A DNA stretch of 64,000 bases from Bacteroidota bacterium (GTDB taxonomy: Bacteria; Bacteroidota; Bacteroidia; UKL13-3), in the NCBI GenBank assembly GCA_947477885.1, contig CANJUD010000001.1:420632-484631 (forward strand). Reading direction: 5' to 3'. Positions 20,846-36,346 of the stretch are shown here, piece by piece (positions within the stretch are counted from its first letter, which is position 1; each line of letters starts with the position of its first letter). The notes below the pieces were generated by a model, which saw only the letters and a list, made by a program, of their open reading frames with translations, ran no database searches and had not been told where the DNA came from. The position numbers and the translations under genes are program-made.

Positions 20846-23689
20846 ATGAACAATAAAGAAGAAATAGAAGATGGCCTGATAGAGGTATTTGGTGCACGCA
20901 TGCACAACCTCAAGAACATTGATATAGCTATGCCCCGAAACAAACTGATTGTGATTACGGGACTTAGTGGAAGTGGGAAAAGCTCACTAGCTTTCGATAC
21001 GATTTTTGCCGAAGGACAGCGCCGCTACCTCGAAACTTTCAATGCATATGCACGCCAATTTGTAGGAAACTTGGAACGCCCCGATGTGGACAAGATTGAT
21101 GGATTGAGCCCCGTTATTGCTATTGAACAAAAAACCGTGAGCAAAAATCCACGCTCTACTGTCGGGACTATAACAGAGGTTTATGATTTTCTTCGTCTAT
21201 TATATGCCCGTGCTGCTGATGCCTATAGTTATATAAGTGGCGAACGCATGGTGAAGATGAACGAAGATCAAATCATCCAAAAAATATTAGTCAATTTTCA
21301 TAACAAAAAGATCATGCTTCTGGCTCCTGTAGTCAAAGGCCGCAAAGGGCATTATAGGGAATTGTTCGAACAAATTCGCAAACAAGGATATAGCAAAGTT
21401 CGCATTGATGGAAAGCTGCAAGATATCGTTCCAAAAATGCAAACTGACCGCTATAAAATACATGATATAGAAATACTGATAGACCGTGTAGAGCCTGGTG
21501 TGGAAAAGGAAACCCGCATTAAAGACAGTATAAAAATGGCGATGAAAACAGGCAAAGGTATTATAATGGTTGCCGAGGCCGATGGAGAAAATGTGCAACA
21601 TTATAGTCGTTTCTTAATGGACCCTGTAAGCGGTATAAGTTATGATGAACCACAACCCAATACTTTTTCTTTTAACTCGCCCTATGGTGCTTGCCCCACA
21701 TGCGATGGATTGGGCTCACAACGCGAAGTGAACGAAAAATTTCTGATTCCTGATCATACCAAATCTATAGTAGGCGGAGCGCTAGCCCCCCTAGGCGAAT
21801 ACCGAAGCAACTGGACATTTGCAGTGATGAAAGCTTTGGGAAAACGACACAAGTTTGCATTAAGTGACAGCATAAATTCTTTTAAGAAAAACCAAATGGA
21901 AATCCTCTTCCATGGCGATCCGGAGCAACTTGATGTGGAGTACGAATTTGCATCAGGCTATAAACAAATATATCATACTACTTGGGAAGGACTGGCAAAT
22001 TATGTTAAACGCCAATACCTCGAAAAGCCTGGTGACAGCATCGCAGTGTGGGCTGAGGAATTTATGGAAGTTTCACCATGCCCCAGTTGCCATGGCACTC
22101 GATTGAAACAGGAAAGTCTTTGCTATAAAATCGCCGATACTAATATAGCCCAACTTGCAGAAATGGATTTATTGAGCTTGGGCAAGTGGATGGAAAATGT
22201 AGAAAAAAAATTAGATGAACGTCAAAAAATAATCGCGACAGAAGTATTAAAAGAAATCCGTTCGCGTTTGGGCTTTTTATTGAATGTGGGATTGGAATAC
22301 TTAACACTAAATAGTCCTGCACGCACACTCAGCGGAGGTGAAGCACAACGCATACGCTTGGCCACACAGATTGGAAGTCAACTTACAGGAGTATTATATA
22401 TATTAGATGAACCCAGTATTGGTTTGCACCAACGCGATAACCATAAACTAATAGAAAGTCTCAAAAACCTCCGCGATATAGGAAATACAGTAATGGTGGT
22501 AGAGCATGATAAAGATATGATGATGGATGCCGATTATATAGTGGATATCGGACCCGGTGCTGGCAGCCATGGTGGACATATTGTGGCACAGGGAAATTTG
22601 CAAGAATTTATGAAACAGAATTCTGTTACTTCACAATATATAAGTGGTAAAAGAAATATTGATGTTCCAAAAACGCGGAGAGAAGGCAATGGTAAATTCA
22701 TAGAACTTAAAGGATGCACCGGAAATAATTTGAAAGGTGTGGATGCGAAATTCCCGCTGGGAAAATTCATTTGTGTAACAGGTGTTTCGGGTAGTGGAAA
22801 ATCATCATTGATTAATGAAACATTATATCCTTTATTACACAAACATTTTTATCAGTCACGATTAAAACCTTTGCCGCATAAAAGTATTACAGGATTAAAA
22901 AATATTGACAAAGTAATAGAGATTGATCAGAGCCCAATTGGTCGCACACCACGAAGCAATCCTGCAACTTATGTAGAAGTATATACTGATATAAGAAACC
23001 TGTTTACAAACTTACCTGAAGCAAAAATAAGGGGATATAAACCCGGGCGTTTTTCGTTCAATGTAAAAGGTGGCCGCTGCGAAACTTGTGAGGGCGGAGG
23101 AATGCGTGCCATTGAAATGAATTTCTTGCCCGATGTATATGTGCAATGCGAAACTTGCAAAGGCAAAAGATATAATAGAGAAACATTAGAAATAAGATAT
23201 AAAGGGAAATCCATCAGCGATGTTTTGGATATGAGTATAGAACATGCCGTTGAGTTTTTTGAACCTGTTCCATCTATATATAGAAAAATAAAAACACTGA
23301 AAGATGTGGGATTAGGATATATAACTTTAGGACAACAAAGTACCACACTCAGCGGGGGCGAAGCACAACGTGTAAAACTTGCTACAGAGTTAAGCAAACG
23401 CGATACTGGAAACACATTTTATATATTAGATGAACCCACCACGGGTTTACATTTTGATGATGTGAAAGTATTATTGGATGTATTAAACTTATTGGTTGAA
23501 AAAGGAAACACAGTTTTGGTAATTGAGCACAATATGGACGTGATAAAAGTGGCAGACTATATTATAGATATTGGCCCTGAAGGAGGCAATGGTGGCGGAC
23601 AAGTATTGGCCACAGGAACTCCTGAAGAACTTATTAAAGTTAAGAAAAGCTATACTGCCCAATTTTTGAAAAAGGAATTGGGGATTTAG
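20846..23689 (+). CDS. uvrA: Excinuclease ABC subunit A
   Basis: A 947-residue DNA-damage sensor of the UvrABC nucleotide excision repair system, full length. First ABC half: Walker [17 protein letters not shown] (about residue 37) and signature [14 protein letters not shown]. Second half: Walker [16 protein letters not shown] (about 650) and [14 protein letters not shown]. Zinc modules are visible as CPTCDGLG with [10 protein letters not shown], and CETCEGGG with [10 protein letters not shown]. Single gene with its own promoter. Its last codons and stop (GGGATTTAG) form one arm of a 14-bp perfect palindrome, so repeat sequence and coding end overlap. Confidence 0.96.
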
Positions 23690-23724
23690 GATTCGGGGCG
23701 GCAGCTTTCTGAATCCTAAATCCC
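23681..23724. repeat. 14-bp perfect palindrome overlapping the uvrA stop (element D)
   Basis: GGGATTTAGGATTC (23681-23694) and GAATCCTAAATCCC (23711-23724) are perfect inverse copies with a 16-base loop. The loop region, read on the minus strand, contains AGCTGCCGCCCCGA, close to the AGCTGACGCC core in the elements at 41.4 and 50.2 kb. The related words GAATCCCGAATCCTGAATCC resume at 23902, beyond the inserted MITE. No T-run follows, so a simple terminator is unlikely. Confidence 0.65.
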
Positions 23725-23729
23725 GAATC

Positions 23730-23901
23730 AATGCCGTTTAGTTAAGCATTTTCTATTGCCCCGACTTTTAAGTCGGGGTATAAAAATTGCAAACAAATTG
23801 GCTTTAGCCGCAGAAAACAATGTGGCTAAAGCCGAATACTTGTTACCATTAAACCGCTGGCTAAAGCCAACGGCAATAAATATTCTTAACTAAACGGCAT
23901 T
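23730..23901. mobile_element. 172-bp MITE-like element with 17-bp TIRs and 5-bp direct repeat
   Basis: Terminal inverted repeats AATGCCGTTTAGTTAAG (23730-23746) and its exact inverse (23885-23901) are flanked on both sides by GAATC (23725-23729 and 23902-23906). Inside are a CCCCGACTT/AAGTCGGGG hairpin (23759-23778), one GGCTTTAGCC (23800-23809) and two GGCTAAAGCC copies (23824-23833 and 23859-23868). No ORF is present, so any movement would need a transposase in trans. It splits the GAATCC word array that starts at the uvrA stop. Confidence 0.65.
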
Positions 23902-23906
23902 GAATC

Positions 23907-24268
23907 CCGAATCCTGAATCCAAGGTTCGCATAGTACATTAGTATAATAATTCTCCATCATTTTTTGATGATGCAAAATTCATCATTTGTTTACATATCT
24001 GATTTTTTTCTAAATTTCAGGGATTCAAAATACCCTCAATTTCCATTTTTTTAGACATTTTTTTTAGAGATAAAAAAAAATAATTTTAGCTTCGTTGAAA
24101 ATTAACGTCCATTGGGTAAAAATATGGCCCACCAGATAAATCACCAAATTTTTAATCCACAAATTGTTTGCAACCTTACAATCATTTTACATATCTTAGT
24201 AGCCCGATTTAATACTAAAGTAATAACCAAAAAAACTAATCCATTATCCAATCTAAACTATAACAATT
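23907..24268. other. Long AT-rich leader before the giant gene
   Basis: 362 bases with no gene. It starts with the tail of the word array (to about 23922), then a small CATCA/TGATG hairpin near 23957-23972, then T-rich sequence. No exact TAnnTTTG box was found; one-mismatch versions occur (TAAATTTC near 24011, TAATTTTA near 24081). The promoter of the giant gene is therefore unresolved. Confidence 0.4.
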
Positions 24269-27200
24269 ATGAACAATTTCTACAAATTAATTTTCTCGTT
24301 CTTGCTTCTATTTGCCACCAACATGGTGCAGGCACAATTAACAGGCACAAGGACAATTCCGAGCACCAACTATCCCTCCGTAAAAATCGCTGTTGACTCA
24401 ATTAACTTATATGGTGTTGGAGCGGGCGGTATTATTTACAACATTACTCCGGGTCACTATGAAAGGACGACTGGAAACATTGCAGTGTTAATCAACACGA
24501 GTTCTTCTAATTCTATCACCTTTAGAAAAAACGGTGCAGGTGCTAATCCTATCATTACAGCAGGAACTGGAGTGTATGCTCGTGATGGTATCTTAAAAAT
24601 ATCAGGAACAGACAGTGTTACTATTGATGGACTTGAACTTAGAGATACAACTTCTAATACCACCGCTAACCAAATGATGGAGTACGGAGTGGTCTTTTTT
24701 AGAAAATCTGTCACCGATGGCTCAAATAATTGCAAGGTTAAAAACTGTGTAATTAAACTTCAAAAAAACAATACAACAAATGGTAGTTTTGGAATAGCTC
24801 TATTAAATGCCGACTCAAGTGGTAGTGTATTAAGTCCAAATATTAATACAGGTTACAGAGCTTCAAATTTACTAATTGACAATGATTCTATTAGCAATGT
24901 TCAGACTGGTATTTTCTTATCAAATACGGGAACACCAAACTCGGTAATATATGATGACAACGTTATCATAAGTAATAACAATATCAGTAATTTTGGAAAC
25001 TCAACCAATACCTATTACGGTATTCGTTTCGACCAATGCACTGGAGCATCAGTATATAATAATGCTATTATAGGGGGGAGTGGCAACACAACTACTTGTT
25101 ATGGCATATATAATACCGGAAATGATTCTATGTCAAACACGATTAGGAAAAACACTGTTTCGCTTAGCCCATCAAACACAGGTAGCCAAATTGCTCAGAT
25201 TGCTGTCCTCAGTTATTCAGGAGCCCAAGGAACTCTTAATATAGACTCAAATACTATACAAAATTGTACTGCAACCTCAGCAGCTGGGGCAGACTGGTTA
25301 GGTATATATATAAACTCTTCGATTAATTTTACAACAAATATAGTTGGCAACACTTTTTCGAACAATACTTATGGGTCTTCCTCTGTTACGGCAACAGGAC
25401 AATTCCATGCCATATATGTTTCTTCGGGTGCTAATACAAACTCGGGCAGTAGCATAACTATTGCAGGAAACAGTATTTCAGGACATACACGTACACAGAG
25501 CACAATTGGTGCAGGTACGAGTTATATGATTGGAATGACAGGAGAAGCATTATCTGTAATTGTAAATAACAATACCATACAAAACAATAACTTACCTGGT
25601 ACTGCAATTTGTGCTGGCGTATACAGTACAGCCGCTTCTGCGACAGTTACTAGAAGAATATTCAATAATACCATTAAAAATATTACAAGATCCTCAGCTA
25701 GTACTGGTATTAAATATGGTATTGGCTTAACCTCTGGCTCTAGTTCCATTGATAGTATCTATAATAATACAATCAGCGATTGGAGTGTACTGGGAACAGG
25801 CCAATTTATTGGTATGCAAGCCAGTTCAACTGGGTTCAAATACTATAATGCTGACAGCATATATAACATTAGCGATTCCTCAAATACACTGTGCTATGGT
25901 CTCTACACCACCGCTGGAACTTCAAATAGTTGCAGTATGAAAAATAACTATATTTACAATATTACCTATAAATTGGGAACAGGTACATTCTATGGAATTA
26001 ATCAGACAGGCAGTGGTACAACTGGTTCATCAAATACCCTAAATATTGACAACAATTTCATATCAACCTTATCTCACCCTAATATGACCTCAGGCGGTTT
26101 GGCGGGAATTGTTAATTCTGGTATGACAAACAACAATAGTATCAGCAATAATGTGATTAAGTACCTAACTGCTGGATCAAGCAGCGTAGTTGCCAATGGA
26201 CTTTTATATGGAATCAACTGTACAAGTAGCAATACTACAAGTGCTAGTATTATTACTATACAAAATGACTCTATATATGGTTTCACCAGAACTCAAAGTA
26301 CAAATGGATCAGGGAATAACTATATGTTTTATTTACAAGGTGAATGCTTAAGTAATGTGTTTGCCAATAATATTGTAAAAGATCATGTATTAGCTGGAAG
26401 TGGAGACTTTATTATATTAAATAACACCCCTACAGCCGCTACAACTACACGTAGGTGTTTCAATAATAAATTCAGCAACAACAACCGTACTTTTTCAAGT
26501 ACTGGAGTAATGTATGGCGTTTATTATATTGGTGCTTCTTCATCTGCAGATAGTATATATAACAATACTATTACAAATTATACTACTTGTGGTACTGGTT
26601 CTTTTATAGGATTCCAATCTAATTCTACTGGATTTAAATATTTCAACAGAGACAGTGTATATAATATTACAGACTCAAGCACTGGTACAAACTTTATGAT
26701 AAATAGCGTAGGAGGAACTACCAACAATGTTGCCATATCGCTCAACTATATATATAATAATACATTTAAAGCAAATACATTTACCCATACTGGAATCGGA
26801 AATTCATCGTCTTCATCAACAAGTGGCACAGCGAGGATTGATAGCAATTATATTAGCAACCAATCTTTCCCAAATGTGACTACAGGAACGGTGTATGGCA
26901 TACAAAGCACTGCAAATGCCTTCAATTATTATATGAGATATAATGGAATACATAATGTTACTTATGGCAATGGGTCAACCTCTGCTAGTGGTACATGTTA
27001 TGGTATTTTTAATTCTGGTACTAATGCAAACGCTAGTTCTTTTACCACAATAAGCAATGACAGTATTGATGGTTTTACGCGTAGCCAAAACACAAATAGT
27101 GGAGGAGCTTTCTATAACATATTTATGAGTGGTGCTGCTATTACCTTGAATATTAATAACAATTTGGTGCAAAACAGTGTAAGTCCTGGTACTGGTGATT

Positions 27201-30200
27201 TTGCAGGTGTATATACTACAGCTACTACGCCTACTACAAGAAATATATACAACAACATTGTAAAGAATTTTACACGAAATAACAGTTCAACAGGTTCGAC
27301 TTATGGTATATTAATTAGTGGCGGAGCTGCTACTGACAATGTGTACTTAAATACCGTAAATTCATTCAATTCAATAGGAACTGGTACCACATATGGATAT
27401 TATTTTGGAGGAAGTGCAACCACAAATAAATTTTTATACTTTGATACTGTTTATAATATAACTACCAACGGTACTATATATGGTATATATACGCTTAATG
27501 GCACTAACTCTTTTATCACTCGTAACCAAGTTTCAGCAATTACAACTAATAACAACGGCGTCAGTGCTGCAGTTGCAGGTATTGTAATGGCCAGTGGTAC
27601 AACTGCGAATATTTTTAACAACAAAATTGCAGGGCTTTCAGCTCCTTTCTCTAGCAACACTACTAATGCTTTAATGGGTATTTTTCTCTCAGCTGGAACC
27701 AATGCAAATGTCCATTATAATACTATATATTTAAATGGGAGTACGGCTGCGGCAAACTTTGGCACGGCTGCATTATATACAAATGTGTCTACTATACTAA
27801 AAGCATCAAACAATATATTCGTAAATACTTCTACGCCTTCAGGAACAGGGGTTACTACTGCAGTATATAGAGCAGGCACTACTGTCACAACACATAATGA
27901 TAGTTGCAACAACAACTTATTGTATGCGGGCACTCCAAGCACAACACGTACTTTGGTATTTGATGGTACTAATAGATTACAAACACTTACTACAGCAAAG
28001 AATTACTTTAGGGCAACTGCTACTCCATTCCGCGAACAATACTCTGTTAGCTCAGCAGTTAGTTTTTACAATAGTACAAATTGTCAACTAAGTTCTTTCT
28101 TAAAACCAGACTCAAGCAGTACTACTGAACTTGAAAGTGGCGGCAGAGCTACCTCATGGACTACTGACGAATTTGACCAAGCATCTGTGCGAACTGGCTA
28201 CCCATTAGGAGGTCAAGTAAATAGCGGTGGAATAGGACCAGATATTGGAGCTGATGAATTTGACGGAATGCCGATAACATCGCATGCATATAATACTACT
28301 GTAGTTACTCATCCTACCTTATTGGCAACCGCTGTAAGACAACGTAACCAACAGATTTTAAAAATTGACTTGCAAACAACAGGTGGCTATAATTTGAAAA
28401 GTATCACCAACCTTCAATTTAATGCTAACAACACAGACAATATCGCTGATATTGATACTGCTTATATATATTATACTGGTAACACATCTACATTTGACAC
28501 TTTACACAAACTAGCTGCAATTGCACCTACCCTAATAAACTATAATATTTCACCAAGTTTCAAATTACAACCCGGAAGTAATTATTTTTGGCTTACTTAT
28601 AATATTAAGAGCTCTGCAACAGTTACTGATACAGTTGATGCTGAACTTGTAGACGTGACTGTTGGAGGTTCTGTACAACCTATAAATGCAGCCCCAGATA
28701 AGGGACGTGAAATAAAAGGGCCAATGTGTGGTACTTATAAAGTAGGCACATCAAGTGCTTCCGACTATGCAACTATTACGGACTTGACCAGTGAACTATG
28801 GACTAGAAGAGTTGATGTTGCCTGCGGTACTGGTGTTATTTGCAAATTAATAGATGCTACTTATAGCACAGGAGAAACATTCCCAATTATATTTGATTCA
28901 ATTGAAGGAACAGGCCCAGCTGGCAGAACTATTACCTTAAAGCCAGATTCTGGTGTTACTGCAACCATTATTGGTTCTAGCGATCACAGTCTTATACAAT
29001 TCCGTGGTACCCGTTATTTTACTGTAGATGGGAATAATGGAAATGGCCAAAAAAGTTTGATAATTAATAACAATAATTCAGCTCCAACAGTTGGAAATAT
29101 TGCCGATGTAACCTTACTTAGCTATGGTACCAATTTGGGTGCAAAGTATATGACGTTTAAAAATACCCAGTTTACTTCTTTTTGGGGAGCACCAATCGGG
29201 ACACTCTCAACTGCTGCTGCAGGTATTACAACAGGCACATCCGCATTACCAGTTACTACTGCAACAGACATTGACAATCTTACTATTGATAGCTGTTGGT
29301 TTTATAATGTAGCCCAAGGATGTGTGCTTCAGGGTGGAACTACCATGGACACACTTACAATTACACACAATATTGTTGGGCATGATGATTATGTGACAAA
29401 CAGAGGTGCTTATGGATTCTTTATTACAAACGTGGGCGTTACTTATTTTAATTATAATAGAATCTATAACCTTATTGGCAATGCTTCTCCAGCATTTGTA
29501 AATCCTTATGGTCTTTTATTACAGGTGACCACAGTAGGCCTACCTGTTGAAATTAAGAAAAACAATATATATTCTATCAGATATGACAGGGTAACTCCCT
29601 CTCCATTTGGTGCACAAGGAATATGGATTATTCCCAATGTTGCAAATGCAAATGTAAAAATACATAACAACTCTATTGCTGATATTACAGCACCTGGGAA
29701 TATTATTTCTGCAGGCCAAGGCAATGGTACCAAAGGTATTGCTGTTACAGGAACAGCAACTAGCAATGTGGAGATCTATAATAATTCTATTAGTATGGCT
29801 GGTACTGTTGTTCGTTCAGGATCTACCAACGATAAAACAGCTTGTATATTTATTGACAACGTGGCTGACAGTATTTTCATGTACAACAATACCATGTCAA
29901 ATAGCATACAAAACTCTGCGGGTATTGACACTGCCTTCTCAATATACTGCATAGCCGCATCCTCAAAATTAAGAAGAATCGACAATAACAACTATTATAC
30001 TAGTGGTACACGGAGCAAACTGGGTTTCTTCTTAAGTGCAGGTACCGTTAACACCATTGCTGCTATTAAAACTGCTACAGGTCAAGATACTTTCTCTAAA
30101 ACTGGCGACCCTAAATATAATACAAGTACTAACTTAAGACCCCAAAGCACTACCAATTTATACGGTGCAGGTAAATCATTAGCTTCAATCACCGACGACC

Positions 30201-33200
30201 TTCTTGGTACAGCCAGGACTTCTACGCCTACTATTGGTTGCTATGAAGACACCGGCGATTTTGCTGCACCTGTTATCACTTATGCTGCATTTGTGAATAG
30301 TACAAATGTAAATACATATAACATCAACAGCAACGTGAAAGCCATCGACCCTTCTCCTGGTACACCCGCCACAACATGCCGCGTTTATTATCGTAAGACT
30401 ACTAATGCAAATGCTTGGGGTGGAACCAATGACAACACTACAGATGGTTGGAAATATGTAGATGGGGTAGTTAGTGGGGCATACTTTAATATCCCGATGG
30501 ATTTCACCTTGATTAATGGGGGAACTACTATTGGCGATGTAATACAATATTTTGTAATAGCACAAGATGGAAAAGCAATTCCAAATGTGTCATATACCAA
30601 AGGTACGCTTACCAATGCTCCTACAAGTATTACACTTACCACCGAATTCCCACTTACAGGTACTCCTGATTCATTCAACATTAACAATGCAATTACGGGC
30701 TGGTTCGATGTAGGGCCTAGCTATACATATAAGAACTTGACTGGAGATACTGGAATATTTAAAATGCTTAACCAAAATGTATTAGGCAGTGATATCCATG
30801 TACGTATCAGGGAAGACCTTATAGAGCCTGGAACTCATGCTCTAAATGAACAATCTGACAGTGTAGGGAATTCACGGATCATTATATATCCCGATGGAAC
30901 AACTACTCGAAAAATAACTGGCTATGTCCCTAATGCTATGATACGAATAAATGGTGCAGATAGAGTGAGCATAGATGGTAGAGATACTGCAACCAATACG
31001 GGCAAATATTTATTATTCCGCAATACAAATTCAACCAATCCTACTATTAAATTTATAGGAGAGCCCAGTTATGATACGATTGAGTATTGTACTATTGAAG
31101 GCTGGAATTCTACTGCTACTTCAGGTACCGTATATATAGGTCAAGGTATTACAGATGGTGTAGACAATATCACTATAACTAATAATGACTTTGGCAACCG
31201 CAGTGACTCTGCCGCCGCTGCATTACCCTACCAACACATCTATTGTGAAGGACAGTCAATATATATATTAAATGATTATAATAATATTACCAATAATAAT
31301 ATATATAACTTTACCAATGCTGGAGTATTTTCTGCCAACATCGGAAATGGCAATTATTGGAATATCAGTGGAAACAGTTTCTATTATAATCATGGCACAA
31401 ACCCTACTACTTCACAATTCGCTATGAACTGGGCTGCTGGAGGATTATCAGGAGGTAATACTTTCAACGATAACTATATAGGAGGTTCTACTACTAATTG
31501 TGGCGGAAGCTATTGGACTAATGCTAACAATGTTGCTGCCACATCATTCAATGGTCTTCGTGTAACAGGAAGTGGACTTAAAAGTGACATGTCAGGCAAT
31601 GTAGTTAAAAATATAAGGGTTTCAAGTACTGGAAACGGGCCACAATTTATTGGCATTTTAGTTAATGGTAGTGGAAGCTTCAACATTGGCAGTATTGCAA
31701 AACCTAATATAATTGGTGATGCTACAGATACCTCTAGTATCAATCTTAGCCCATCAACTAGCAGTCATTATGCTTTATTCTCTACTTCAACCAACAATGT
31801 GAACATGCGTTATAACAAAATACAAGGCATGAAATTTAATTCTACTACAGCTTCTGTAGGTATGATTATGTCGCAAGGAGCTACTGGTTTTGACAGCATC
31901 GAATACAACGAAATTGGTTCAACCGCTGTTAACAGTATCAACCATTATGGTACAAGTACTTTCTTTGGAATTAATAGCACCAAAACACTGGGTTCATTAA
32001 TAAATGGCAATACTCTTAAAAGTATTAGTGTATTTGGCACAGCAGTTCAAGTGCAAGGTATTAACCAAAGTGCTACCACCGGTGCAAACATATATATGAC
32101 TGGAAATACTTTCGGCTCTTCTACTGCAACAAATGGCATTAGAATGTATGGAGACGGGTCAGGAGCATGGTTTGGCTTGATAGCCTCCACCACTACAGCT
32201 ACTGCATATATATCTAACAATACGGTAAAAGGCATTCAAATATTGCATCCATCAAATACAGGACAAATTGCATGTGCTCAATTAACTGGTAGTTGTATTT
32301 ACAGATGCAACAATAATACATTTGGAGAATTAGGCATTAATAACAGTATGATATTTGCTGGCAACACTTCCCAGCTCTTCGGACTTTACCTAGGCAATTC
32401 GGATTCAACTTTTTGTTATGGAAACACATTGGCTGGTATTAATCTTACCAATACTGGTGGTACAGGTGCTTTCTATGGTATGTATCATCCAACAACCAAT
32501 ACCTATTTCTTAGATTCTGGAAACATGGTTGGAGACCCTACTGTAACAGGCAGTATAACAAATGCTAGTAGTGGAACTATGTATGGAATATATAATGTTG
32601 GAGCCTCTACTAATGGCATAACCTTTAAGAATAATACCATTGGTGGTATTAGCCGCACAAACACTGGATCTTATACTACCTATATAGTAAATAACTCCAA
32701 TGGTTCTAATACTGCAAGTGGTCATAAATTTAGTAACAATACAATCCAAAACTTAAGTTTTGCAGGAACTGCTACTACATATGGCATGTATTTATTTGGC
32801 AGTGCGACACCTAGTTTGGGATTAAGAGTAAATGATAATATCATTAAGGATATTGCATTTACACATCCTTCTGGATCTTGTTCTTTCTTTGGTATCGCTC
32901 CAGTTTCTGGAGCTCCAGATTTTGTTTGCTATAACAACACCATCGGAGACGCAGCTAGCACTAACAATATTACAATGAACGAAGCAAGTACTTTTGGTGG
33001 TATATATAATACTAATGCGACTGATACGGTAATGGTTTATAATAATACTATTGCGGGAGTTAATATTAACAACAGCTCGAGCAGTCCAACAATGTATTGT
33101 ATTTATAATTCTACAGCAACTAACTACTTCTTAGACTCAGCTAATACTACAGGCAACCCAAGTGTAAACGGCTCTATTACTATTGCAGGTACAGGTACAT

Positions 33201-36200
33201 TTGCAGCACACAACTTTGCTGGGGCATCTACAAGTGGAATATATATTCGTAATAATACCATTGGAGGCATCACAAGGTCTGGAACAGGAACTTATACTAG
33301 CTACGGCATCTTTAATTCTGATGCCAGCAACACCAAAAGTGCCCATCACATCAACAACAACACTATCCAAAACATGACTTTTGCAGGATTAGCTACTACG
33401 TATGGTATCAACTCTACTACAAATACTGCTGTTGATAACAATGGTGGACCTGGTAATAGGAATTATAATAACATAATTAAAACTATATCTTTCACTCATT
33501 CAAGTTCTGCATCAACTTTCTATCCATTATATAATGCAGGAGCGGGAGATTGGTTAGTATATAATAATATAATAGGCGACACCTCAGCTACTAGTGATAT
33601 AAGCATGAAAGAAGTATCGGCAAATGGTTTCGGTGCAATCTATAATAACAGTGGAACTGATACTGTAATTGTATATGGAAACGTAGTCGGTGGTATTACC
33701 ATTAATAATAGCAGCACTAGTCCCAATATGTACGGATTTACATATGTACCTGCCACTTCTTATCCAAACTATTTGGTTGACTCAGCAAACATAATAGGCA
33801 ATGCTAATGTAAGCGGTAGTATCACCATCAATGGAAATGGCACATTTTATGGCCATAATTTCCCAACTAATATTTCCGTAACAGGGACAAGAGGTGTTAA
33901 TATCAGAAACAACAGAATTGGAGGTATTACAAGAACCAGCACAGGTTCTGCAAATACCTATGGTATTTATGATGCATGGGCACCAACTGGTCTGCAAAGT
34001 CCTCACAATATCAATGACAATAGTATTAGCAACTGGAATATGTCAAACGTGGGTATTACAACTGGTATCTTCTGTAATATAAGTAGCAGTAGAAATAACT
34101 TCGTATATAATAATACTATTAAAGGATTCACCTTTACCAATACTGGAACTGGTGGTTCGTTTGCAGGTATTGCCATCAATGCTGGTAAAGTATTGTTGAC
34201 ACAACCCGACTCTTCAAGTGCAGGAAACAATGTAATTGGAGATCCTAATGTTTCAAACAATATCAACAGTAGCATGAACGGCCCTCACAATGGAATCAGT
34301 ACAGGCTCGGCCAATGCCATATCCGTTATAGGAAATAGCGTTAATAATATCACCGCTACTTCTACAGGTACAAGCTGTGTTGTAATTGGAATCGCCTGTG
34401 GCAATAGTGCCACTGCTACTATTATAAATAGCAACACGGTGAAAAACCTATCAGGTGCTGGAACAACTACCAATGGCTTTAATTTAGGAGGTGCTGTGTG
34501 TGGTATATATACAACCTCAACCTCTACTATGAGTGTTAATAACAATATTGTTAATGGCATTGCACTTACAAGCACAGGTACAACTTCCAATGCATATGGT
34601 ATTGACTTATACTTGTCAGGAAATACTACTGTTAATTCAAACAGAGTATATAATATGTCTTCTACCAGCAATGGTAATTTGACTGGTTTGTATTTCAACT
34701 CTACAAATGCTTCTACACATGCAATTAAGAATAATCAGCTAAGTATTGCCAATGGTGCAAATACCAATGACTTACCCATACAAGGTATTTATGCTGATAA
34801 TGGTGCTGGTTCAGGTACTGTACAGATGTATTATAATACCGTTTTCTTGTCAGGTTCTGCCTCTTCTGGTTCTAATATTAGTGCTTCGTATTTCAGAAAC
34901 TCGACTACTGGAACAACCAATGTGCTTAATAACATATTCATGAATAGTCGTACAGGTGGAAGTGCCAATCACGTTGCTCAGGCCTATATTGGTGGTATCA
35001 CAAACAACCGTACTAATTACAACTTGAATATTACTGCAGATAGTAATAGAGCAGTTTCTGTTAGTGGTACAAATTGGAATATCAATGCCTGGCGTAACGG
35101 CTTGAAACGTGACAGTAGCGGCTGGTACGCAATTGCAGGAACAAATGTGGTAGCTGATAGTATGTTTATCGATAAAGCCAATGGTAATTTGGGAATCAAC
35201 ACAACAACTACTGATGCTTGGTATGCTAATGGTAAAGGGTTGCAAACTCCTGGATATGCTGATGAGTATGGAAATACTGCTTCGGTTCGTAGTACTACCG
35301 TTGCAAATGGTGCACCTGACTTAGGATCCGATGAGTTCACACCAACTTCTCATCCTGATGAATTGTTCTCAAAAGGACCTCACACCAATGGCAACGTTGA
35401 CTCTTTAATGTATGGTTTCAGACCTGTAGCTTATGTTAAATGGAGAGGTGCATCAATACCTACATTTACTACCATTCGTTATTATACTGGCACAACCCCT
35501 CCTGATAATACCAATAATGGCAATAACCCTTCAGCTAGATATCTGAACTGCTATTGGTGGATTTCGGCTACCGGCGGCACTGCAGAATATGATATCAACT
35601 TTATTTATGATGACGCTTTAGTTGGTTCTATCAGTTCAGAAAGCTCGTTGAGGATTACCCGTAAAGAAGTGGGTGTTGTAGGATCCTGGAAAGCACATAC
35701 TGCCGATGCAACAGTGAATACAACGACCAACAATATGCAACTGCTCAATACCCGCGGTTTCTCAATATGGACAGGTAGCGACAACGCCTCTCCGTTGCCA
35801 GTAACCTTGGTGAGTTTCACTGGACAAAAACAAGATAAGAATGTGATGTTGAAATGGGTAAGTTCATTCGAAGAACAAATGGATGGCTATGAAGTTGAGT
35901 TTAGTGCCGATGCACAAAACTTTAACAGCATTGGATTTGTGAAAGCAGTAAACAACCGTTTCAGCGAAAACAACTACAACTTATTGCATACTTCTCCTGT
36001 TAAAGGCAACAACTATTACCGCTTGAAATCAATTGAAAGCAATGGTAAATTTACTTATAGCAATATCGTTGTGGTTAACTTCGACGAAATAGACCGTATG
36101 CAAATTGTAATACAACCCAATCCATCAAAAGACCAGGTTAGTGTGATATTGCAAAACCAAACACAGCCAGCCCTGATCCAGGTATATGATATGGCCGGCC

Positions 36201-36346
36201 GCTTGATGTTCAACGAAAAAGTTTCTCTAGGTCAAAGTGCTACTCAAGTGAACCTTTCAGGTTGGAATTTGGGAAGCTATATCTTAAGAGTTACCAACGA
36301 CGATGGCACCTCATTCATCAACAGAATAATGAAAATAGAGGAATAG
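24269..36346 (+). CDS. Giant (4025-residue) beta-helix T9SS cargo protein
   Basis: Signal peptide 1-23 (ending VQAQ). Residues about 30-1330 form a right-handed beta-helix with three degenerate repeats of about 265 residues; their landmark block (I.GFTRTQST-like, then TRR, STGFKY and DS.YNI.DSS) starts near 401, 669 and 933. A domain at about 1340-1485 resembles the N-terminal domain of BNR-repeat neuraminidases (YFWLTYNIKSSATV). A second helix spans 1490-1985, a beta-sandwich-like domain 1995-2110, and a third helix about 2200-3690 with repeats of about 210 residues starting near 2749, 2956 and 3172 (landmark DSxN..G....GSIT, then NNTIGGI.R). Near 3840 comes LPVTLVSFTGQKQDKNVML, then a type A sorting domain (QPNPSKDQVSVILQN, ending MKIEE). 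Composition is rich in Asn, Ser, Thr and Gly. The likely role is a surface filament or adhesin (inference). Confidence 0.92.
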   Translation: MNNFYKLIFSFLLLFATNMVQAQLTGTRTIPSTNYPSVKIAVDSINLYGVGAGGIIYNITPGHYERTTGNIAVLINTSSSNSITFRKNGAGANPIITAGTGVYARDGILKISGTDSVTIDGLELRDTTSNTTANQMMEYGVVFFRKSVTDGSNNCKVKNCVIKLQKNNTTNGSFGIALLNADSSGSVLSPNINTGYRASNLLIDNDSISNVQTGIFLSNTGTPNSVIYDDNVIISNNNISNFGNSTNTYYGIRFDQCTGASVYNNAIIGGSGNTTTCYGIYNTGNDSMSNTIRKNTVSLSPSNTGSQIAQIAVLSYSGAQGTLNIDSNTIQNCTATSAAGADWLGIYINSSINFTTNIVGNTFSNNTYGSSSVTATGQFHAIYVSSGANTNSGSSITIAGNSISGHTRTQSTIGAGTSYMIGMTGEALSVIVNNNTIQNNNLPGTAICAGVYSTAASATVTRRIFNNTIKNITRSSASTGIKYGIGLTSGSSSIDSIYNNTISDWSVLGTGQFIGMQASSTGFKYYNADSIYNISDSSNTLCYGLYTTAGTSNSCSMKNNYIYNITYKLGTGTFYGINQTGSGTTGSSNTLNIDNNFISTLSHPNMTSGGLAGIVNSGMTNNNSISNNVIKYLTAGSSSVVANGLLYGINCTSSNTTSASIITIQNDSIYGFTRTQSTNGSGNNYMFYLQGECLSNVFANNIVKDHVLAGSGDFIILNNTPTAATTTRRCFNNKFSNNNRTFSSTGVMYGVYYIGASSSADSIYNNTITNYTTCGTGSFIGFQSNSTGFKYFNRDSVYNITDSSTGTNFMINSVGGTTNNVAISLNYIYNNTFKANTFTHTGIGNSSSSSTSGTARIDSNYISNQSFPNVTTGTVYGIQSTANAFNYYMRYNGIHNVTYGNGSTSASGTCYGIFNSGTNANASSFTTISNDSIDGFTRSQNTNSGGAFYNIFMSGAAITLNINNNLVQNSVSPGTGDFAGVYTTATTPTTRNIYNNIVKNFTRNNSSTGSTYGILISGGAATDNVYLNTVNSFNSIGTGTTYGYYFGGSATTNKFLYFDTVYNITTNGTIYGIYTLNGTNSFITRNQVSAITTNNNGVSAAVAGIVMASGTTANIFNNKIAGLSAPFSSNTTNALMGIFLSAGTNANVHYNTIYLNGSTAAANFGTAALYTNVSTILKASNNIFVNTSTPSGTGVTTAVYRAGTTVTTHNDSCNNNLLYAGTPSTTRTLVFDGTNRLQTLTTAKNYFRATATPFREQYSVSSAVSFYNSTNCQLSSFLKPDSSSTTELESGGRATSWTTDEFDQASVRTGYPLGGQVNSGGIGPDIGADEFDGMPITSHAYNTTVVTHPTLLATAVRQRNQQILKIDLQTTGGYNLKSITNLQFNANNTDNIADIDTAYIYYTGNTSTFDTLHKLAAIAPTLINYNISPSFKLQPGSNYFWLTYNIKSSATVTDTVDAELVDVTVGGSVQPINAAPDKGREIKGPMCGTYKVGTSSASDYATITDLTSELWTRRVDVACGTGVICKLIDATYSTGETFPIIFDSIEGTGPAGRTITLKPDSGVTATIIGSSDHSLIQFRGTRYFTVDGNNGNGQKSLIINNNNSAPTVGNIADVTLLSYGTNLGAKYMTFKNTQFTSFWGAPIGTLSTAAAGITTGTSALPVTTATDIDNLTIDSCWFYNVAQGCVLQGGTTMDTLTITHNIVGHDDYVTNRGAYGFFITNVGVTYFNYNRIYNLIGNASPAFVNPYGLLLQVTTVGLPVEIKKNNIYSIRYDRVTPSPFGAQGIWIIPNVANANVKIHNNSIADITAPGNIISAGQGNGTKGIAVTGTATSNVEIYNNSISMAGTVVRSGSTNDKTACIFIDNVADSIFMYNNTMSNSIQNSAGIDTAFSIYCIAASSKLRRIDNNNYYTSGTRSKLGFFLSAGTVNTIAAIKTATGQDTFSKTGDPKYNTSTNLRPQSTTNLYGAGKSLASITDDLLGTARTSTPTIGCYEDTGDFAAPVITYAAFVNSTNVNTYNINSNVKAIDPSPGTPATTCRVYYRKTTNANAWGGTNDNTTDGWKYVDGVVSGAYFNIPMDFTLINGGTTIGDVIQYFVIAQDGKAIPNVSYTKGTLTNAPTSITLTTEFPLTGTPDSFNINNAITGWFDVGPSYTYKNLTGDTGIFKMLNQNVLGSDIHVRIREDLIEPGTHALNEQSDSVGNSRIIIYPDGTTTRKITGYVPNAMIRINGADRVSIDGRDTATNTGKYLLFRNTNSTNPTIKFIGEPSYDTIEYCTIEGWNSTATSGTVYIGQGITDGVDNITITNNDFGNRSDSAAAALPYQHIYCEGQSIYILNDYNNITNNNIYNFTNAGVFSANIGNGNYWNISGNSFYYNHGTNPTTSQFAMNWAAGGLSGGNTFNDNYIGGSTTNCGGSYWTNANNVAATSFNGLRVTGSGLKSDMSGNVVKNIRVSSTGNGPQFIGILVNGSGSFNIGSIAKPNIIGDATDTSSINLSPSTSSHYALFSTSTNNVNMRYNKIQGMKFNSTTASVGMIMSQGATGFDSIEYNEIGSTAVNSINHYGTSTFFGINSTKTLGSLINGNTLKSISVFGTAVQVQGINQSATTGANIYMTGNTFGSSTATNGIRMYGDGSGAWFGLIASTTTATAYISNNTVKGIQILHPSNTGQIACAQLTGSCIYRCNNNTFGELGINNSMIFAGNTSQLFGLYLGNSDSTFCYGNTLAGINLTNTGGTGAFYGMYHPTTNTYFLDSGNMVGDPTVTGSITNASSGTMYGIYNVGASTNGITFKNNTIGGISRTNTGSYTTYIVNNSNGSNTASGHKFSNNTIQNLSFAGTATTYGMYLFGSATPSLGLRVNDNIIKDIAFTHPSGSCSFFGIAPVSGAPDFVCYNNTIGDAASTNNITMNEASTFGGIYNTNATDTVMVYNNTIAGVNINNSSSSPTMYCIYNSTATNYFLDSANTTGNPSVNGSITIAGTGTFAAHNFAGASTSGIYIRNNTIGGITRSGTGTYTSYGIFNSDASNTKSAHHINNNTIQNMTFAGLATTYGINSTTNTAVDNNGGPGNRNYNNIIKTISFTHSSSASTFYPLYNAGAGDWLVYNNIIGDTSATSDISMKEVSANGFGAIYNNSGTDTVIVYGNVVGGITINNSSTSPNMYGFTYVPATSYPNYLVDSANIIGNANVSGSITINGNGTFYGHNFPTNISVTGTRGVNIRNNRIGGITRTSTGSANTYGIYDAWAPTGLQSPHNINDNSISNWNMSNVGITTGIFCNISSSRNNFVYNNTIKGFTFTNTGTGGSFAGIAINAGKVLLTQPDSSSAGNNVIGDPNVSNNINSSMNGPHNGISTGSANAISVIGNSVNNITATSTGTSCVVIGIACGNSATATIINSNTVKNLSGAGTTTNGFNLGGAVCGIYTTSTSTMSVNNNIVNGIALTSTGTTSNAYGIDLYLSGNTTVNSNRVYNMSSTSNGNLTGLYFNSTNASTHAIKNNQLSIANGANTNDLPIQGIYADNGAGSGTVQMYYNTVFLSGSASSGSNISASYFRNSTTGTTNVLNNIFMNSRTGGSANHVAQAYIGGITNNRTNYNLNITADSNRAVSVSGTNWNINAWRNGLKRDSSGWYAIAGTNVVADSMFIDKANGNLGINTTTTDAWYANGKGLQTPGYADEYGNTASVRSTTVANGAPDLGSDEFTPTSHPDELFSKGPHTNGNVDSLMYGFRPVAYVKWRGASIPTFTTIRYYTGTTPPDNTNNGNNPSARYLNCYWWISATGGTAEYDINFIYDDALVGSISSESSLRITRKEVGVVGSWKAHTADATVNTTTNNMQLLNTRGFSIWTGSDNASPLPVTLVSFTGQKQDKNVMLKWVSSFEEQMDGYEVEFSADAQNFNSIGFVKAVNNRFSENNYNLLHTSPVKGNNYYRLKSIESNGKFTYSNIVVVNFDEIDRMQIVIQPNPSKDQVSVILQNQTQPALIQVYDMAGRLMFNEKVSLGQSATQVNLSGWNLGSYILRVTNDDGTSFINRIMKIEE

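Follow-up and report, generated by a model that had tools for sequence, protein, structure and literature searches.

Several described systems come close to the element analyzed here. Bacteroidota MITEs with similar ends but unrelated interiors, as also seen here, are known from P. gingivalis and include BrickBuilt; unlike in our case, their ends match IS5-family elements, according to the accessible parts of PMC4596501. MITECca01 of Cardinium is a further Bacteroidota MITE of about 240 bp whose parent was identified by its ends, although this parent belongs to the IS982 family (PMC9769881, available sections). In Ca. Thiomargarita nelsonii, the hupL MITEs carry 10-bp direct and 19-bp inverted repeats, similar to the repeats described below, and no parent was found, as reported in the available text of PMC4853749. 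Also close is the IS4 subgroup, which Table 1 of PMC2266710 lists with lengths of 1400–1650 bp, ends of the form -AATR--------WTW, a YREK motif, and duplications of 10–13 bp. For E. coli IS4, the single record used here shows TAATGCCGATCAGTTAAG as the end and a duplication of 12 bp (CAGAACCAAGAT). REP/BIME repeats, finally, are intergenic palindromes arranged as inverted units that share a short, conserved tag (PMC2817692 and PMC3733652, accessible parts).

The window, i.e. the whole stretch of 64,000 nucleotides that was analyzed, contains an element that is best read as an IS4-subgroup MITE with a REP-like hairpin pair, moved in trans by an IS4 transposase into a heptad array (Table 1); we assign this reading a probability of about 0.93. 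The IS4-type DDE transposase would have been provided in trans by a full-length element sharing the 18-bp ends, and the insertion into the GAATCCY heptad array behind uvrA would have duplicated 10 bp of the target. The interior consists of two inverted, REP/BIME-like hairpins, a pair that is also found without the ends. As the source element is no longer present in the assembled genome, the copy is probably stranded, and the element has probably lost its mobility in this genome. It is ordinary in kind, with a well-resolved parentage.

Table 1. Position of the element, its parts, and the surrounding features in the window.
Feature	Position	Strand	Remarks
MITE element	23729..23902	.	174 bp, CAATG...CATTG; perfect 18-bp ends, other genome copies, ends as on IS4 elements
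Left terminal inverted repeat CAATGCCGTTTAGTTAAG	23729..23746	+	fits -AATR--------WTW of the IS4 subgroup (as given in PMC2266710)
Right terminal inverted repeat	23885..23902	-	perfect reverse complement of the left one
REP-like unit 1: TCTATTGCC + hairpin CCCCGACTT/AAGTCGGGG	23752..23778	+	TCTATTGCCC repeated in the genome
Central hairpin GGCTTTAGCC...GGCTAAAGCC	23800..23833	.	also found in copies without ends
REP-like unit 2, inverted: hairpin + GGCAATAA	23854..23879	-	
Target-site duplication, left copy AATCCCGAAT	23719..23728	+	same geometry in other copies
Target-site duplication, right copy AATCCCGAAT	23903..23912	+	perfect 10-bp direct repeat
GAATCCY heptad words left of the element	23711..23728	+	
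GAATCCY heptad words right of the element	23903..23921	+	
Inverted repeat across the uvrA stop, built of GAATCCY words	23677..23728	+	arms 23677-23694 / 23711-23728
uvrA, context gene	20846..23689	+	TIGR00630 / NF001503

An earlier note on this DNA described a 172-bp unit with perfect 17-bp ends and internal hairpins. The 17-bp inverted ends (23730-23746 and 23885-23901; two exact sites in the window, 0.28 expected at ≤3 mismatches) are real and the hairpins are present as stated, but comparison with other copies places the true ends one base further out (CAATG...CATTG), extending the perfect repeat to 18 bp and the element to 174 bp. This size lies within the 50–1000 bp of MITEs, and the element has inverted ends and no transposase. 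Folded as a single strand, it reaches -80.5 kcal/mol (z -12.0), with none of 200 shuffles as good. An Rfam search of the window yielded no families. A 4025-aa open frame located directly downstream (window 24269-36346) has a T9SS sorting domain (TIGR04183) at its C-terminus, which indicates a Bacteroidota host.

The genome contains three complete copies at different sites, including the one in the window, and one-ended remnants (e.g. C5:103744, C9:83012, and C15:51070). The copy at C1:225236-225416 is 75% identical and lacks a clean duplication, and the copy at C3:73701-73909 (L039) has the duplication CCCGCAGGG vs. CCCATAGGG, matching in 7/9 bases. Compared to the other two complete copies, L039 contains a palindrome-like piece of 16–18 bases in its central and right hairpin regions; the two pieces are reverse complements, which is suggestive of copying from one arm into the other. 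The flanks of L038, L039, and L040 show copies adjoining a GTCCC...GGGAC / CGGTAG repeat type.

In the interior, the sequence TCTATTGCCC has 22 exact matches in the genome, compared to one for the reversed control. Judged by eye, 16 of these sites contain a hairpin unit (weak in one case) and six lack a hairpin. An element end is found ≤50 bp upstream of six of the 22 sites at 0–1 mismatches, of one site at three, and of another at four mismatches, while random 50-mers reach ≤4 mismatches in 0.8% of cases; this control is conservative, as its pool was drawn from loci bearing such elements. The remaining sites have no element ends. The element and the REP units are thus separable, and the window element is a composite. 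A tandem REP unit (TTGGCTGAAGCCAACGGCAATAGATAAT...) without element ends is found at C2:135434-135619 (L043). Similar to REP/BIME as described in the accessible parts of PMC2817692 and PMC3733652, the palindromes are intergenic, repeated, arranged in inverted pairs, and tagged (here by CTATTGCC). In contrast to the repeats described there, the units are few, the tag is not GTAG/CGTC, and a linked Y1 gene was not found: the genome has four Y1 genes, and the motif is absent within ~1.5 kb of them.

These features could also reflect a REP/BIME element whose mobility depends on a tyrosine (Y1) transposase of the REP-associated type, with the terminal repeats being incidental, a scenario we regard as very unlikely. 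It would account for the two inverted CTATTGCC hairpins inside the element and for CTATTGCC hairpins elsewhere in the genome without ends (e.g. C14:14959-15091, C1:263847, and C2:135395), and the four Y1_Tnp genes would provide candidate movers. However, the absence of the motif holds for all four loci (4/4), and these show no convincing similarity to the element (best E 0.74), so that we rejected them as the mover. Moreover, other elements combine the same ends with unrelated interiors. Single-strand Y1 transposition is not known to give a 10-bp duplication or to require long inverted ends. Y1 is therefore disfavored as the whole explanation, the ends and duplications being common to IS4, and may have spread the interior REP units.

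The ends themselves are widespread. At one mismatch, the core end occurs in 15 of 97 genomes, and the exact core end plus the first base in 9 of 395 class genomes (reversed control 0 for the latter); both counts include the window's own genome. Paired copies at the class loci read span 65–326 bp, several with perfect 9–11 bp duplications, such as GTATTATGATT, GAATCTCTTTT, and ATACTCATTT in other families of the class. Window-type ends are also found in several phyla, mostly 61–450 bp apart and often with perfect 9–12 bp duplications. A scan of named contigs for the ends matched at least 119 stretches. The 119 listed stretches contain at least 65 end pairs, 33 of which have a 9–12 bp duplication scoring ≥8, compared to a mean of 0.18 and a maximum of 2 when right flanks were exchanged as a control among the matches listed. 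Among the 32 sub-threshold pairs are decayed copies and, probably, some that arose by chance. A 1143-bp pair in L090, one end of which has three mismatches, encloses an unrelated gene and was taken as chance. L104 (G062) shows a tandem arrangement, in which the target duplicated by one element is immediately followed by another left end of the same element type. Many duplications elsewhere among the matches listed are CCCnnnGGG-like, and small GC palindromes may be preferred targets of IS4-type ends; the palindrome score of the duplications (0.97 vs. 0.57 in shuffles, with 12/1000 as high) is a weak signal that we do not rely on.

Full-length elements with these ends link them to IS4. A search with the E. 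coli IS4 transposase gave matches in only 3/395 class genomes at four loci, three of which have both window-type ends and the fourth one end. IS4-type open frames are present in at least nine loci of the 119 listed stretches, and in at least six of these (L162, L190, L196, L248, L250, and L252; 1467–1691 bp) both ends enclose the frame. Among the matches listed, the hosts of these six loci are Aquimarina, Holophagae, Lunatimonas, Paenibacillus, Clostridium, and Allobaculum, with the frame split in two in the Allobaculum locus (L190). Lengths of full-length elements with the same ends are 1440 bp (L146 and L148), 1467 bp (L196), 1572 bp (L162), and 1599 bp (L252). The transposases with these ends have a DDE domain and score above the cut-off of NF033592, and all seven tested (7/7) exceed the NCBIfam cut-off for the IS4 family; Y-x2-R-x3-E-x6-K is readable in L146 and L196. 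Ends of this kind thus bound elements of 1400–1650 bp encoding a DDE/YREK IS4 transposase, as in the IS4 subgroup. Compared to the subgroup as tabulated in PMC2266710 (Table 1), CAATGCCGTTTAGTTAAG fits -AATR--------WTW----, and the duplications are 10 bp in the window and 9–12 bp in the other copies (10–13 bp in the subgroup). The window element differs from E. coli IS4 at three positions of the 17-bp core end, starts with CAATG instead of TAATG, and, at 174 bp, lacks a transposase. The lack of an IS4 transposase in the window's genome might point to mobilization by another IS family with similar ends; this is even less probable than the Y1 scenario, as the ends and the 9–12 bp duplications both agree with the IS4 subgroup, and IS4 transposases are encoded by the full-length elements that carry these ends.

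A putative source for the IS4-subgroup MITE is found within the genus. A profile of seven IS4-type transposases, run against 64 genomes of the family, had matches in 17, three of them strong and the rest weak and partial; two of the three strong matches belong to the genus of the window. One sister genome (G002) contains a decayed IS4 element of 978 bp, the ends of which are perfect and flanked by the 9-bp duplication CCCTCAGGG. The other (G001) encodes an intact 441-aa IS4 transposase, the frame of which stops just before a right end with two mismatches, while the left end lies beyond the contig start. In the window's genome, listed as 99.88% complete, no IS4 or other PF01609 transposase was found, although an IS4 copy may be hidden in a contig gap. 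A parent in the same genome is usual but not essential for a MITE. In eight other MITE-bearing genomes, none of the 30 PF01609 loci (from 32 matches) is flanked by these ends, suggesting that such elements frequently persist after their source has gone, or that the source was lost in assembly. The earlier observation that no transposase is nearby extends, for IS4 and other PF01609 transposases, to the whole genome. Mobilization in trans, as suggested in the earlier note, is supported as the probable origin by the intact IS4-group elements with these ends and by the transposase in the genus. Today, it would need a re-arriving IS, since the genome now lacks an IS4 transposase. Together with the further copies and the target duplications in relatives, the autonomous elements with the same ends corroborate the classification as a MITE.

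The target site is consistent with this origin. In position and length class, the 10-bp duplication resembles those of the other copies (9–12 bp). The 5-bp GAATC repeat previously noted at the flanks is only part of it, and was rejected as the duplication because it is too short compared to the 9–12 bp of the other copies and IS4. Because the target array is itself repetitive, the 10-bp direct repeat is partly expected at this site and is weaker evidence than the duplications of other copies. The GAATCC words are real and constitute a GAATCCY heptad array, with the pattern AATCCYRAATCCYRAATC occurring at 39 places in the genome at ≤1 mismatch (reversed control 0). GAATCCY words sometimes occur in inverted pairs forming hairpins, e.g. 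at C2:222299/222341. Excising the element together with one duplication copy yields GAATCCT AAATCCC GAATCCT GAATCC, and since these heptads are in register, the sequence supports insertion into an older array, as had been proposed. An uninterrupted array behind uvrA, which a relative might have retained, was not found, as both other genomes of the genus have neither array nor element at this position; their uvrA genes are 89% and 85% identical. Least likely of all is a functionally conserved, immobile regulatory or terminator structure behind uvrA, for which the strong fold (z -12) straight after the uvrA stop would speak, but which is at odds with the copies at other genome sites and the absence of the element behind uvrA in 2/2 other genus genomes, the two findings that also contradict the idea of a single copy conserved at this locus in relatives.

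Variability of the interiors, combined with a tendency to fold, is also found beyond this genome. After trimming 35 bp per end, 73 of the 80 end pairs from two locus lists were long enough to be scored, and their interiors have a median fold z of -3.75, with 35/73 at ≤-4, among the matches listed. Flanks of equal length have a median of -0.46, with 10/144 at ≤-4 among these matches; the shuffles of interiors and flanks preserved base composition only, and longer inverted ends may add some structure. The interiors of 45 hand-picked elements, mostly chosen for good duplications, fall into 33 sequence groups. The interiors are thus much richer in hairpins than the flanks and mostly unrelated in sequence, which may reflect selection for interior structure. 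In T. nelsonii, contig L184 contains two elements with window-type ends and 11–12 bp duplications, and these and the hupL MITEs, compared by the available description in PMC4853749, likely form one family. More tentatively, and with the odds rather against it, the IS4-subgroup ends could constitute one multi-phylum MITE system, including the parentless Thiomargarita hupL MITEs, where the ends stay constant while unrelated hairpin-rich DNA, often local REP/BIME units, repeatedly takes the place of the interior. Selection would then act on the structure of the cargo and not on its sequence, e.g. as an insulator making the insertion harmless.

A published description of a MITE family with these ends was not found in the literature searched, which was mostly outside subscription journals. 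An orphan-looking repeat can be tied to a named transposase group, with a source seen within the genus, and a single end signature allows small IS4-type elements to be recognized in different phyla, also in a genome whose abundant MITEs were published as parentless. The constancy of the ends, as opposed to the changing yet structured interiors, makes the origin of MITE interiors testable.
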